This document shows, piece by piece, positions 1,736-41,355 of a DNA stretch of 41,355 bases. This DNA is from Synechococcales cyanobacterium M55_K2018_004 (GTDB lineage Bacteria; Cyanobacteriota; Cyanobacteriia; Elainellales; Elainellaceae): the NCBI GenBank assembly GCA_015295905.1, contig DVEB01000152.1, forward strand, positions 1 to 41,355, in the 5' to 3' direction. The notes under the pieces are model-generated. The model was not told the origin of the DNA. It saw only the letters and a program-made list of their open reading frames with translations, and ran no database searches. Numbering within the stretch: the first letter of the stretch is position 1; each line of letters starts with the position of its first letter. The position numbers and the translations under genes were made by a program.

Positions 1736-1823
1736 AACGTCAGCTCTGGTTAAGCGGATTTTGGGCACCGCGCCGGGCGCGGTGCCGAAAAGCAGGGGTT
1801 TCAGCGTATCCGGAATTCCCGTT
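1736..1823 (+). repeat. Family A palindromic element, short single-hairpin form (A2)
   Basis: It starts AACGTCAGCTCTGGTTAAG and ends TATCCGGAATTCCCGTT, matching the two termini of other A copies. It has only the first hairpin (CACCGCGCC/GGGCGCGGTG, flanked by TTTTGGG and a diverged partner) and lacks the second. It lies between the convergent CHASE2 and transaldolase genes, so it could also end transcription. Its last two bases form part of the transaldolase stop codon. Confidence 0.8.
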
Positions 1824-13644: not shown

Positions 13645-15222
13645 GTGACACCGGCAATGACTTCACCCGAACAACCTGAACCGCAGCATGGATCAACCCC
13701 AAAGGGTGTGCAGAAAATCCGCACGATGATCGAGGGATTTGATGACATCAGCAACGGAGGTCTGCCTGTCGGTAGGACCACCTTGGTCAGCGGCACCTCT
13801 GGCACTGGCAAAACCCTCTTTGCAGTTCAGTTTCTCTATAACGGCATTACTCATTTTGACGAAGCAGGGGTGTTTGTCACCTTTGAAGAAGCCCCTGCCG
13901 ACATTATCAAAAACGCCCAGAGCTTTGGCTGGGACCTGCAAGCCTTGATTGACGAAGGCAAGCTCTTCATTCTCGATGCTTCCCCCGACCCCGATGGGCA
14001 GGAAATCGTCGGTAACTTCGACCTGTCTGCCCTGATTGAACGAATCCAGTATGCCATCCGCAAGTATCGCGCCAAGCGGGTTTCGATCGACTCAGTGACG
14101 GCCATCTTTCAACAGTATGATGCGGTCTCCGTGGTGCGGCGGGAGATCTTTCGCCTCGTGGCCCGGCTCAAGCAGGTGGGAGCAACCACCATCATGACCA
14201 CCGAGCGCATTGAGGAATACGGCCCAGTTGCCCGCTTTGGGGTGGAAGAATTTGTCTCCGACAACGTGGTCATCGTCCGTAACGTGCTGGAGGGCGAACG
14301 TCGCCGCCGCACAATGGAGATCCTCAAACTACGCGGCACCACCCACATGAAGGGAGAATACCCCTTCACTATCACCAACCAAGGAATTAACATCTTTCCA
14401 CTGGGGGCCATGCGCCTCACTCAGCGCTCTTCCAATGCTCGTGTCTCCTCTGGGGTGAAAACATTAGACGAGATGTGTGGCGGCGGTTTCTTCAAAGATT
14501 CGATCATCTTGGCTACGGGAGCCACTGGCACCGGCAAAACCCTGCTGGTCAGTATGTTTCTGCAAAATGCCTGTGTGAATGGGGAGCGGGCAATTTTGTT
14601 CGCCTATGAAGAGTCACGGGCACAGTTGTCGCGCAACGCCTATTCCTGGGGGATTGACTTTGAAGACCTGGAACAGAAGGGACTGCTGAAAATCATCTGC
14701 GCCTACCCAGAATCTGCTGGCCTGGAAGACCACCTGCAAATCATTAAGTCTGAAATTGCCGAGTTCAAACCCTCTCGCATTGCCATCGACTCTCTTTCGG
14801 CGCTGGCGCGAGGAGTGAGCAACAACGCCTTCCGTCAGTTTGTTATCGGAGTGACAGGCTATGCCAAGCAAGAGGAGATCACAGGCTTCTTCACGAACAC
14901 CACGGATCAGTTCATGGGGTCGCATTCCATTACGGACTCCCACATCTCGACGATCACCGACACCATTCTGATGTTGCAGTACGTCGAGATCCGGGGTGAG
15001 ATGTCACGGGCCATCAACGTCTTTAAGATGCGGGGTTCCTGGCACGACAAAGGGATTCGTGAATACAACATCAGCGAGCAGGGGCCAGAGATCAAAGACT
15101 CCTTCCGCAACTTCGAGCGCATTATCAGCGGTTCGCCCACTCGGGTTGCGGTGGATGAGAAGAGTGAACTCTCGCGAATTGTGCGCGGCTTCCAAGACCG
15201 TAACAGTGAAGAGGAAACTTAG
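13645..15222 (+). CDS. kaiC: Circadian clock ATPase/kinase KaiC
   Basis: A 525-residue central clock ATPase, autokinase and autophosphatase, with duplicated RecA-like CI and CII domains. The Walker A motifs are GTSGTGKT (about 50-57, CI) and GATGTGKT (CII). The CII phosphorylation region reads SITDSHISTITDT; its Ser-Thr pair is residues 435-436 here, equal to S431/T432 of Synechococcus KaiC, encoded at 14947-14952. T426 is also conserved. The catalytic glutamate pair in CI is in FVTFEEAP, and the A-loop and tail region (EKSELSRIVRGFQDR) is complete. The GTG start gives MTPAMTSPE, similar to MTSAEMTSP of Synechococcus; the ATG at 13657 is the alternative. It is the last gene of the kai cluster. 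The stop is followed at once by a perfect 32-bp palindrome. Confidence 0.99.
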   Translation: MTPAMTSPEQPEPQHGSTPKGVQKIRTMIEGFDDISNGGLPVGRTTLVSGTSGTGKTLFAVQFLYNGITHFDEAGVFVTFEEAPADIIKNAQSFGWDLQALIDEGKLFILDASPDPDGQEIVGNFDLSALIERIQYAIRKYRAKRVSIDSVTAIFQQYDAVSVVRREIFRLVARLKQVGATTIMTTERIEEYGPVARFGVEEFVSDNVVIVRNVLEGERRRRTMEILKLRGTTHMKGEYPFTITNQGINIFPLGAMRLTQRSSNARVSSGVKTLDEMCGGGFFKDSIILATGATGTGKTLLVSMFLQNACVNGERAILFAYEESRAQLSRNAYSWGIDFEDLEQKGLLKIICAYPESAGLEDHLQIIKSEIAEFKPSRIAIDSLSALARGVSNNAFRQFVIGVTGYAKQEEITGFFTNTTDQFMGSHSITDSHISTITDTILMLQYVEIRGEMSRAINVFKMRGSWHDKGIREYNISEQGPEIKDSFRNFERIISGSPTRVAVDEKSELSRIVRGFQDRNSEEET

Positions 15223-15297: not shown

Positions 15298-15388
15298 TAC
15301 CGACTCCGTCTGTGTTGTAGTGTAAAACGTGCGCTGCGCGCACGTTTTACACTACAACAAACCGACTCAATAACCGACGGAGTCGGTA
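15298..15388 (+). repeat. Family C palindromic element (C1)
   Basis: A 91-bp element bounded by TA on both sides, with perfect 11-bp terminal inverted repeats CCGACTCCGTC / GACGGAGTCGG. The interior 15313-15359 is a perfect hairpin of two 22-base arms around a TGC loop; the arm starts TGTTGTAGTGTAAAACG. A second copy lies at 31916-32019 with paired substitutions in the stem. It is located between kaiC and the convergent DUF3086 gene. Confidence 0.85.
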
Positions 15389-15401
15389 TCTAGTTCTGGT
15401 T

Positions 15402-15525
15402 AACGTCAGTTCTGGTTAAGCGGGTTTTGGGTCACCGCGCCGGGCGCGGTGACCCAAAACCCTTGCTGTTCCGTGCGCATCGCGCACGGAACAGCAAGGA
15501 TTTCAGCTTATCCCGAATTCACGTT
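15402..15525 (+). repeat. Family A palindromic element, full two-hairpin form (A3)
   Basis: The termini AACGTCAGTTCTGGTTAAG and CTTATCCCGAATTCACGTT are imperfect inverted repeats of each other. Between them, hairpin 1 (15422-15462) has 20-base arms around a single G, with the core CACCGCGCC/GGCGCGGTG. Hairpin 2 (15463-15497) has 16-base arms around ATC, with the core CCGTGCGC/GCGCACGG. The whole can fold as a three-way junction. TA precedes the 5' end. Confidence 0.85.
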
Positions 15526-15618
15526 GGTTAAGAAAGTTTTGGGGCACAAGTTTTGGGGCACCGCGCCGTGTCCAGTGCCCCAAAATCTTTGATTTTCCAC
15601 CTATTCCAAGTTTGCGTT
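15521..15618 (+). repeat. Diverged family A copy overlapping the end of A3 (A4)
   Basis: It begins in the ACGTTGGTTAAG that ends A3 and continues with a partly duplicated TTTTGGGGCAC and a decayed hairpin (CACCGCGCCGTG with partner CAGTGCCCCAAAA). It ends TTTGCGTT, a degenerate version of the A terminus. The second hairpin has decayed to TTTGATTTTCCAC. Confidence 0.5.
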
Positions 15619-15660
15619 AGTTCACGTCAATACAGACGCGTTAGTTCACGTCAATACAGA
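15614..15660 (+). repeat. Tandem 23-bp duplication at the DUF3086 stop codon
   Basis: Two identical 23-bp units (GCGTTAGTTCACGTCAATAC plus AGA) occur at 15614-15636 and 15638-15660, separated by one base. The second unit contains the stop codon (15651-15653) and the last codons of the DUF3086 gene. Confidence 0.8.
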
Positions 15661-17444: not shown

Positions 17445-17606
17445 AACGTCAGTTCGACAAGCGGTTTTTTCATCACCGAGGTGTCGCTCTTGATTTGAAA
17501 AACCACGGTTTGCAGGGTGGTGTGCATCATGCAACGTCACTGCAACAGCAGTGATTGAATTCATGGGAATTCATGATGCCGACTTTGTTTCTCCAGAATT
17601 CACGTT
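17445..17606 (+). repeat. Degenerate family A copy (A5)
   Basis: It starts AACGTCAGTTCGACAAGCGG after a TA and ends CCAGAATTCACGTT. The inner part has lost the typical GC-rich hairpins but keeps GGTTTTTTCA / TTTGAAAAACC complementarity. About 160 bp long, so it probably carries extra sequence. Confidence 0.5.
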
Positions 17607-19420: not shown

Positions 19421-19505
19421 AGATGTCAACAGTTTTTCGTGGGGAGCCCCGCTACGCGAGAGGTTCCACAAAAAACGGTTGACATCATGAGCGCGTAGGG
19501 CCATA
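19421..19505 (+). repeat. Family B palindromic element, 5' end eroded (B3)
   Basis: The 3' part, CATCATGAGCGCGTAGGGCC followed by ATA, is nearly identical to B1 and B2, ending in CCA then TA at 19504-19505. The hairpin arms are GTCAACAGTTTTTCGTGG and the roughly complementary CCACAAAAAACGGTTGAC. The stop codon and last codons of the xanthine dehydrogenase FAD-subunit gene lie inside it. Confidence 0.7.
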
Positions 19506-20309
19506 AAACGGCGCGAGCGATCGCCCTAACAACACTCGCGCCATTTCTCGCCGATACGTTGCACTTGCCTGGTCATCTTCAATGCAGTCTTCTAGTGGAA
19601 TTGCTGTGTTGAGGGCGATCGCCACCTCTTCCGCTGTGGGCATTCCAGCAAACGTCAACAATTTTGGTGCCGGACTCACCGCGCCAATTCCCACCCTCAC
19701 CTGCTGAGTCATGGGATTGTAAGCCGTCACCACAATGGCAAGTGCCAATCCTGCTGAGGCCACACAAATCCGCTGATAAGTCGTCTGCCACGTCAAAAAC
19801 TCCCTCGGAATTAAAACCCGCCTAACGACATCACCCGGTTGCAGGATGGTGCGTCTCGCTCCTGTCTGAAAGTCCACTGCCTCAATCCAGGCTGCTCCGC
19901 CAGGAGACAGCACCTCATACCGCGCCCCCAGCGCCATCATTACGGGTGCAAACGTCCCCGCAGGCAAGGCCAAACAAAGATTGCCAACCACTGTGGCAAC
20001 GTTTTGGACCTTGAAGGAGGCCAACGCGTGCACACCCCTACGCAGAGCAGCGATCGCTCCCCACTGCTCAGGAAACTCAGCCTCCACTAACCGACTCATC
20101 ACACAGGTTGCCCCAATGACCAGCCCTGCCTCAGTCACCGCCAATTCATCCCAACCTAATCGCTGCAAATCCACCAACGTTTTCACCTGCGGTTGGGGTT
20201 CCGTAAATAGCCACGTCCCCCCGGCCAACCAAGCCATACCCGGTTGCCAGGGAGGTAACTCATCCAGTCGAGTGGGCCGCAGCAGCGTTTCAACCGTATG
20301 CAAATCCAT
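19485..20309 (-). CDS. Xanthine dehydrogenase FAD-binding subunit
   Basis: About 274 residues in the fold of the molybdenum hydroxylase FAD subunit (XdhB/CoxM type), which passes electrons from the Fe-S clusters to NAD+ or another acceptor. Features: AWLAGGTWLFTEPQPQ (about 25-40, usual AGGTDL), LVDLQRLGWDELAV, the GATCVMSRL block, the flavin-contact loop QNVATVVGNLCLALPAG, and GARYEVLSPGG. The C-terminal CO dehydrogenase flavoprotein-like domain has RICVASAGLALAIVV and VRVGIGAVSPAPKLL. It supplies exactly the domain missing from the fused protein at 22496. An ATG at 20351 would add 14 residues; I prefer MDLHTVETLLRP at 20309. The last residues (GPTRS) and the stop lie in repeat B3, so the original C-terminus seems to have been replaced. 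It is last in the purine cluster. Confidence 0.88.
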   Translation of the reverse strand: MDLHTVETLLRPTRLDELPPWQPGMAWLAGGTWLFTEPQPQVKTLVDLQRLGWDELAVTEAGLVIGATCVMSRLVEAEFPEQWGAIAALRRGVHALASFKVQNVATVVGNLCLALPAGTFAPVMMALGARYEVLSPGGAAWIEAVDFQTGARRTILQPGDVVRRVLIPREFLTWQTTYQRICVASAGLALAIVVTAYNPMTQQVRVGIGAVSPAPKLLTFAGMPTAEEVAIALNTAIPLEDCIEDDQASATYRREMARVLLGRSLAPFYGPTRS

Positions 20310-22253: not shown

Positions 22254-22269
22254 ATCAAGCAAATCAATC

Positions 22270-22392
22270 ACGTCAGTTCTGGTTAAGCGGGGTTTAGGGC
22301 ACCGCACCGGGCGCAGTGTCCCAAAACTCTTGCTGTTCCGTCTACAACACGCACGGAACAGCAAGAGTTTCAGCTTATCCGGAATTCACGTT
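22270..22392 (+). repeat. Family A palindromic element inside the purine cluster (A6)
   Basis: It starts ACGTCAGTTCTGGTTAAGCG and ends CTTATCCGGAATTCACGTT, followed by TA. Hairpin 1 is partly decayed (CACCGCACCGGGCGCAGTG). Hairpin 2 keeps its outer arms TTGCTGTTCCGT / ACGGAACAGCAA, but the centre is changed to CTACAACACGC. It lies between the fused xanthine dehydrogenase gene and uraD and could attenuate or process the operon mRNA. Confidence 0.8.
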
Positions 22393-31915: not shown

Positions 31916-32019
31916 TACAGAATCCGTCTGTAAAGTAGCAGTTTGTTGTGGTGTAAAGCGTGCGCTGCACGCACGTTTTACACCACAACAAACCGACTCA
32001 ATAACCGACGGAGTCGGTA
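31916..32019 (+). repeat. Family C palindromic element (C2)
   Basis: Bounded by TA on both sides. The 3' terminus (ACCGACTCAATAACCGACGG then AGTCGG) is identical to C1; the 5' terminus is slightly diverged (CAGAATCCGTC). The stem starts TTGTTGTGGTGTAAAGCG. At the position where C1 has an A-T pair, C2 has G-C on both arms, a compensated change. It lies about 130 bases before the CHASE2-GGDEF-EAL start. Confidence 0.85.
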
Positions 32020-32147
32020 TGAGATTGAGGCATTCCGCCCCTAGAAATTGGCATCTCAGGCTTTGTTGAAGCCCCCTTGGGTCTCCAGCAAGTCTCTGAA
32101 GCAGCCACAACAGATCTGTTAGGTACTTCTTGTTTATCCGCTGGGTT

Positions 32148-34773: not shown

Positions 34774-34895
34774 ACGTGAATTCGGGATAAGCTGAAACCC
34801 TTGCTGTTCTGTGCGCGACGCGCACGGAACAGCAAAGGTTCTGAGGCACTGCGCCGTACGCCGTACCCCAAAACCTGCTTAGCCAGCCTAACGCT
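34774..34895 (-). repeat. Family A palindromic element, reverse orientation (A7)
   Basis: It starts ACGTGAATTCGGGATAAG (complement of the A 3' terminus), then hairpin 2 (TTGCTGTTCTGTGCGC-GAC-GCGCACGGAACAGCAA, shown in parts: one C-to-T change gives a G-T pair). A decayed hairpin 1 and CTTAGCCAGCCTAACG, the eroded 5' terminus, follow. Confidence 0.75.
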
Positions 34896-35687: not shown

Positions 35688-35811
35688 AACGTTAGTTCTG
35701 ATTAAAAGGGCTTTGGGGCACCGCGCCGCACACGGTGCCCCAAAGCCTTTGATGTTCCGTGCGCGTTGCGCACGGAACATCAAAGGCTTCAGCTTATCTG
35801 GAATTCACGTT
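35688..35811 (+). repeat. Family A palindromic element, full form (A8)
   Basis: Starts AACGTTAGTTCTGATTAA and ends CTTATCTGGAATTCACGTT, followed by TA. Hairpin 1 is GGCTTTGGGGCACCG.../...GGTGCCCCAAAGCC around the GCGCCG core. Hairpin 2 is TTTGATGTTCCGTGCGC and its complement around GTT. Both arms differ from A3 (TTGCTGTT becomes TTTGATGTT, with AACATCAAA on the other side) while staying paired. Confidence 0.85.
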
Positions 35812-35814
35812 ATT

Positions 35815-36040
35815 AACGTCAGTTCTGGTTAAGAGGATTTTGGGGGGCTGCGCCGCACGTACTCCCCCAAAAAGCTTGATTGGTCGTACGCAGTGCGCAC
35901 GACCAATCAAGAGCTTCAGATATAGCGCTATGGGCATAGGTTAGGACAGAGCTTTTTGCGGGAAACCTCGTGCAGTGGGGTTTCTCGCAAAAAGCGTTTT
36001 ACATCATGAGCGCGTAGCGCCATAATCTCAAATTCACGTT
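35815..36040 (+). repeat. Family A element interrupted by a family B element (A9)
   Basis: The 5' terminus AACGTCAGTTCTGGTTAAG starts at 35815 (TA at 35814-35815). Hairpin 1 is TTTTGGGGG / CCCCCAAAA. Hairpin 2 is CTTGATTGGTCGT / ACGACCAATCAAG around CGC-AGT-GCG. After TTCAGA at 35920 the element is interrupted by B2; its end, ATCTCAAATTCACGTT, resumes at 36025 and is followed by TA (36040-36041). Confidence 0.85.
35921..36024 (+). mobile_element. Family B element inserted in A9 with TA duplication (B2)
   Basis: A 100-bp element (35923-36022) flanked by TA at 35921-35922 and 36023-36024. Termini TAGCGCTA and TAGCGCCA are inverted repeats (7 of 8). The inner hairpin is GCTTTTTGCG / CGCAAAAAGC extended by GAAACC / GGTTTC. 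Removing the element and one TA leaves TTCAGATAATCTCAAATTCA then CGTT, the same length as the A consensus end. No coding capacity. Confidence 0.8.
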
Positions 36041-41315: not shown

Positions 41316-41355
41316 AATATCAGTTCAGGTTAAGCGAGTTTTGGGGCACCGCGCC
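41316..41355 (+). repeat. Family A palindromic element, truncated by window end (A10)
   Basis: Begins AATATCAGTTCAGGTTAAGC, close to the A 5' terminus, and continues GAGTTTTGGGGCACCGCGCC, the left arm of hairpin 1. It starts 35 bases after the crtO stop. Confidence 0.75.

Follow-up and report, generated by a model that had tools for sequence, protein, structure and literature searches.

A gene-free MITE whose inverted repeats closely resemble those of an IS982-family IS has been described in Cardinium cOegib, where it is ~240 bp long and is considered to derive from a parental IS (PMC9769881). The ends of IS982 elements themselves are published as starting with 5'-AC and as being accompanied by direct repeats of variable length (PMC7335449). 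REPINs are short, mobile, palindromic and intergenic elements tied to RAYT transposases (PMC3116915), and Nezha and other MITEs of cyanobacteria are cited in PMC10969869.

The repeat analysed here, 124 nt long in its reference copy, lies in a stretch of 41,355 nucleotides (the window) of the Synechococcales cyanobacterium M55_K2018_004, which we will call the host. Like the Cardinium element it carries no gene and has IS982-type inverted repeats, but it is shorter (124 nt, with further copies of 79–88 nt and other sizes), its interior is unlike that of an IS and consists of two palindromes, it is present in hundreds of copies, and no IS of this kind is found in the host assembly. With the IS982 family, which includes ISNsp1 of Nostoc (PMC7335449), it shares a similar terminal-repeat length, 5'-AC near the tip and direct repeats of variable length, although the host ends begin with AAC and the published ones with AC, and although the autonomous partners are ~1 kb long with a PF13612 transposase whereas the host repeat has no transposase. 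The resemblance to REPINs (short, mobile, palindromic and intergenic, with compensatory changes in the hairpins) is also clear; in contrast to them, the host element has inverted terminal repeats, target duplications of 4–6 bp and a DDE-family partner. With Nezha it shares the class of cyanobacterial MITEs.

A text search of the open literature, with ISfinder and subscription papers outside its scope, returned the Cardinium element as the sole IS982-derived MITE described and none from cyanobacteria. The earlier note on this DNA had been unable to say whether the family is described; Rfam at gathering thresholds gave no matches for the element, and neither did the plasmid and phage collections searched. 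The host element is therefore, apparently and provisionally, an undescribed variant of the IS982-type MITE, and a likely mover can now be named for an abundant cyanobacterial repeat. As a whole, we consider it very probable that this is an IS982-type MITE moved in trans, whose palindromes are kept by copying between arms at the DNA level.

The 124-nt element and its copies

The reference copy (15402–15525, + strand, recognised by profile search and fold) starts with AACGTCAGTTCTGGTTAAG and finishes with CTTATCCCGAATTCACGTT, its ends being imperfect inverted repeats of each other. The left terminal repeat AACGTCAGTTCTGGTTAAG (15402–15420, + strand) matches the transposase-3' end (GGGTTAAG type) of cyanobacterial IS982 elements, while the right one, read inward as AACGTGAATTCGGGATAAG (15507–15525, − strand), matches their transposase-5' end (GGGATAAG type). 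Between them, folding places hairpin 1 (15422–15462), with a 19-bp stem and the 3-nt loop CGG (CCG in other copies), and hairpin 2 (15463–15497), with a 16-bp stem and the 3-nt loop ATC (GTC or GAC in most copies), the stem of the latter being extendable through pairs formed with hairpin 1's 3' arm. The interior thus consists of two adjacent near-perfect palindromes, unlike the interior of an IS982 IS, and the element as a whole is short and, as a MITE should be, without coding capacity. A three-way junction is the minimum-energy fold both as RNA (−85.5 kcal/mol, z −11.8 against shuffled sequences) and with DNA parameters (z −11.75), with a terminal helix of 17 pairs in which 89% of cells are paired across 27 copies. 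The earlier note had read this arrangement, two hairpins bracketed by inverted termini and able to form a three-way junction, from the letters, and both folds bear it out; its count of about ten full, partial or degenerate copies in 41 kb is likewise upheld by profile search and reading.

Complete two-hairpin copies are found by profile search at 22269–22392 (+ strand) and at 35688–35811 (+ strand); flank reading shows that the second carries a 5-bp target-site duplication, ATTAA, and directly adjoins the next copy (35815–36040, + strand, from sequence reading), a two-hairpin element interrupted close to its right end by a different dispersed repeat (~35923–36023). A nearly complete two-hairpin copy lies on the − strand at 34774–34887 (profile search), and a shorter, one-hairpin version of 88 nt sits between two convergent ORFs at 1736–1823 (+ strand; profile search and reading). 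The reference copy is adjoined by a 5'-truncated relic that retains hairpin 1 (about 15521–15607, + strand; positions 15539–15598 match model positions 11–71, E 4e-7), whereas the element at 17445–17606 (+ strand, E 0.023) has only the terminal repeats in common and a different 162-nt interior. Two more copies are cut by the contig itself, at its start (1–28, − strand; end match and sequence reading) and at its end (41316–41355, + strand; end match and profile search). The 18-nt left end alone has seven matches in the window against 0.01 expected by chance.

This is the ordinary density for the host genome (5.01 Mb in 362 contigs). Within its 5.01 Mb the end motif AACSTSARTTCKGGWTAAG has 603 and 577 matches on the two strands (1180) at up to two mismatches, against 1 and 0 for the reversed motif, and at least 40 full-length copies are 92–100% identical to 15402–15525. 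A 381-kb sample not selected for copies contains 79 recognisable ones, 28 of them near full length, which occupy ~1.8% of the sequence at ~21 per 100 kb, a density that may be somewhat high since the sampled stretches begin at contig ends, where copies abound. All copy statistics cover 1.4 Mb of the 5.0-Mb genome together with whole-genome pattern counts, and the copies fall into size classes of 124 nt, 79–88 nt and others. Many host contigs start or end in or near the repeat (C73 and C92 at 20–38, C10 and C44 at 52–70, and the window at 1–28 and 41316–41355), so the repeat seems to break short-read assembly.

The placement of all copies at or between gene ends, as the earlier note had described it for the window, holds genome-wide: of 149 near-full-length copies, only 7 are fully contained in an ORF of at least 100 aa, where random placement predicts 103. 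Copies flanked by convergent genes outnumber those flanked by divergent ones (42 vs 23), while among all neighbouring pairs the two kinds are equally common (177:176). The most likely reason for gene avoidance and the relative convergent enrichment is that harmful insertions are selected against.

Several other features adjoin the copies. The window contains a kaiC-like gene at 13645–15222, in keeping with the host's place in the taxonomic family of the cyanobacterium Kaiparowitsia implicata, and two exact tandem copies of GCGTTAGTTCACGTCAATACAGA stand at 15614–15660, next to the MITE relic. A second family of dispersed repeats (CATAGGTTAGGACA...ATCATGAGCGCGTAGCGCCATA) is present at 103–199, 19442–19513 and 35923–36032, its copy near 35923–36023 being apparently inserted into the MITE copy that starts at 35815.

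Transposition and the IS982 connection

The 124-nt repeat is a MITE, as its terminal inverted repeats, target-site duplications, empty sites, copy number and avoidance of genes attest. A direct flank repeat of at least 4 bp accompanies 42 of 83 complete copies, compared with 1.8 when flanks are shuffled, and the target-site duplications measure 4–6 bp. When the host copy at L222:10040 is removed together with one duplication, its flanks align over ~105 nt, at up to 90% identity, with a different repeat that is present uninterrupted in more than 20 places; the flanks of L328:14852 (genome G003), emptied in the same way, match uninterrupted copies at 94–96%, and removal of the element at L014:1501 in the host, with one duplication, also restores a repeat found uninterrupted elsewhere.

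The ends point to the mover. In Kaiparowitsia implicata (G015), a cyanobacterium of the same taxonomic family as the host, inverted pairs of these ends, spaced exactly 981 bp, enclose a damaged transposase gene with a match to the Pfam domain DDE_Tnp_1_3 (PF13612) at 4e-59. This is the domain of IS982-type transposases. A 969-bp IS982 element with an intact 303-aa ORF and the target duplication agct is present in another relative, G021, and these two genomes provide the autonomous partners that carry the MITE ends. In a sample of 242 cyanobacterial genomes, 81 have relatives of the 303-aa transposase. At 25 of 30 inspected IS982 loci, from cyanobacteria of several families, both ends are within one mismatch of AACSTSARTTCKGGWTAAG, and almost without exception GGGATAAG is the end 5' of the transposase and GGGTTAAG the one 3' of it. 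The MITE ends show the same asymmetry, the left being of the GTTAAG type and the right of the GATAAG type.

It is on these matching ends that our proposal for movement is built: DDE transposases of the IS982 family would recognise the 18–19-nt ends of the MITE and move it in trans, duplicating 4–6 bp of target at each insertion. Neither the PF13612 profile nor tblastn detects an IS982 transposase in the host assembly (G000), and the mover is therefore inferred from other genomes. Multicopy IS can drop out of short-read draft assemblies, and an IS982 transposase was presumably once present in the host or has reached it. The PF01609 transposases of the host were considered as movers and rejected, as they are present in the genome but do not have the ends of the repeat. 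A subterminal CTGAAACCC is conserved in many of these MITEs and absent from the IS982 ends examined, so a closer autonomous partner may exist.

The same ends enclose different interiors elsewhere. Among the matches listed, the 26-nt end pattern occurs in Nostoc, Calothrix, Fischerella, Westiellopsis, Leptolyngbya, Lyngbya, Xenococcaceae and others, where the elements have other interiors, with lengths of 103, 114, 117, 124, 135 nt and more, and mostly lack the two hairpins; the two-hairpin form is clear in no more than three genera, all from the family of the host. The covariance-model search of cyanobacterial genomes that the earlier note had suggested agrees with this: across 242 genomes, full-scoring members (128–148 bits) came only from G000, G003 and G015 among the matches listed, while weaker matches in other genomes (about 35–52 bits) may reflect ends held in common or palindromes of a generic kind. 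One set of IS982-type ends thus ties together several unrelated-looking cyanobacterial repeat families.

Two such families are worth recording. A related family of 164–165 nt, with like ends and several different internal hairpins, is found in other genera of the host's family, in G021 (L074, L079, L084, L089) and G009 (L077, L082, L087, L092). In Nostoc, MITEs with the same ends (L131, L148, L152, L176, L178, L185, L192, L202) are exactly 124 nt long, equal to the host element, yet their interior is unrelated and without the two hairpins.

Covariation and loop inversion in the hairpins

The hairpin arms vary strongly while remaining paired. An alignment of 27 copies from three genera has 95% of its stem cells paired, and the number of cells changed on both sides is 113, whereas shuffles give 30.5 and slid partners no more than 14; the terminal repeats of the three genera show no clear covariation (6 vs 2.7 in shuffles). 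The host alone gives 298 double-changed Watson-Crick cells vs 79 in shuffles, or 177 vs 43 once the three commonest subfamily pairs are removed, with the terminal repeats at 16 vs 12. The earlier note's observation that arm sequences differ between copies and remain self-complementary is thereby confirmed, and the test of covariation it had proposed comes out positive in the host and across the three genera, measured against shuffles and slid partners as the null, not a phylogenetic one. Between nearest-neighbour copies, changes in both arms leave 49 Watson-Crick pairs and 2 unpaired positions, and 126 changes affect one arm. In the frame of the element, the hairpin stems of the host contain G-U and A-C in equal measure (240 and 244).

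The 3-nt loops invert. Fifteen Kaiparowitsia copies that are identical at all non-loop positions have the hairpin-1 loops GAC (9), GTC (5) and GTT (1), although these are draft genomes, in which an assembler using short words might in principle have turned the loops of such 35–41-nt palindromes the wrong way round. Two copies in G003, identical outside their loops, differ as GTT vs AAC, that is, at three bases at once, and point mutation would need three simultaneous changes to produce this. The comparison of identical copies is used here in place of a tree-based test of loop flipping, which we set aside: its contrast depended on the tested columns and mostly vanished once the tested column and its partner were excluded from the tree. 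Loop inversion and strand-symmetric covariation are thus both properties of these hairpins.

Homogenisation of arms together with inversion of the spacer is the footprint published for a polymerase that switches template between inverted repeats (PMC8604942, PMC8794818). We propose that the arms drift in sequence but stay complementary because a mutation arising in one of them would be copied into its partner as DNA, through template switching or arm-to-arm correction, which would also invert the 3-nt loops. By analogy with the published footprint, template switching may be the cause of both the inversion and the covariation, and from the equality of G-U and A-C in the element frame, the exact inversion of loops and that footprint together we infer that DNA arm copying maintains the palindromes. 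The stronger form of this proposal, in which continual template switching keeps the palindromes, loops flip so often that copies otherwise identical differ in loop orientation alone, and the MITE acts as a natural many-copy recorder of template switching with RNA-like covariation arising without selection on RNA, seems to us somewhat more probable than its opposite.

What else could keep the arms paired? Inserted copies might be under selection for a function as RNA, be it as a structured transcript, a terminator or a stabiliser of mRNA ends, and this would be in line with the strong covariation across three genera and with the very stable fold. It could also account for the enrichment between convergent genes, an enrichment that selection against promoter damage yields as well. 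However, an RNA kept on one strand should tolerate G-U over A-C, and their equality in the element frame speaks against it, as do the free inversion of the loops, the random orientation of copies relative to tandem genes (31 vs 33) and the lack of an Rfam family. A scan for terminator patterns found one site where 0.7 are expected, which is chance level, and a role as intrinsic terminator was rejected. Between tandem genes the transcribed strand does have more G-U than A-C (143 vs 105, p 0.019, one of several tests), and no excess of C>T parallels this outside the hairpins; the excess is a weak hint of a contribution of RNA to hairpin maintenance. On balance we regard RNA function as unlikely. 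The earlier note was right in recognising a dispersed family that preserves its structure, but the reading implied there, of structure kept as if for RNA, is less favoured than that of a MITE with DNA-level copying between arms.

Hairpins may instead be kept as an aid to transposition or replication, as single-strand or cruciform DNA, with only lineages of paired arms amplifying, comparable to REPINs, whose hairpins show compensatory changes (PMC3116915). The amplification of equal-length two-hairpin elements with different arm sequences in three genera would suit this idea, and such selection can operate together with template switching. On the other hand, these hairpins are missing from IS982 elements and from many MITEs that have the same ends, compensated changes are found also between nearest-neighbour copies and so extend beyond master lineages, and mobility alone does not predict loop inversion; we therefore hold it as a possible but clearly less favoured explanation. 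That the repeat is itself of the REP/REPIN kind, with a single-strand (HUH, RAYT) transposase as its mover, appears extremely improbable, for although it is palindromic, intergenic and of high copy number, its inverted terminal repeats, 4–6 bp target duplications and DDE-family partner with the same ends belong to another kind of element.

Copying between arms at the DNA level is thus the reading we prefer, and it has consequences beyond this genome. Compensatory covariation is standard evidence for functional RNA, and the MITE hairpins can serve as a warning control for RNA discovery by this route, as covariation need not mean RNA. They also offer a dense natural data set for measuring template switching in bacteria. 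A third repeat of the window, palindromic and 77 nt long, is present at 15313–15389 and 31944–32020 with 95% identity between the two copies, and among the positions that differ is a pair changed with compensation (GTAGTG/CACTAC to GTGGTG/CACCAC), so that homogenisation of arms may extend beyond the MITE.
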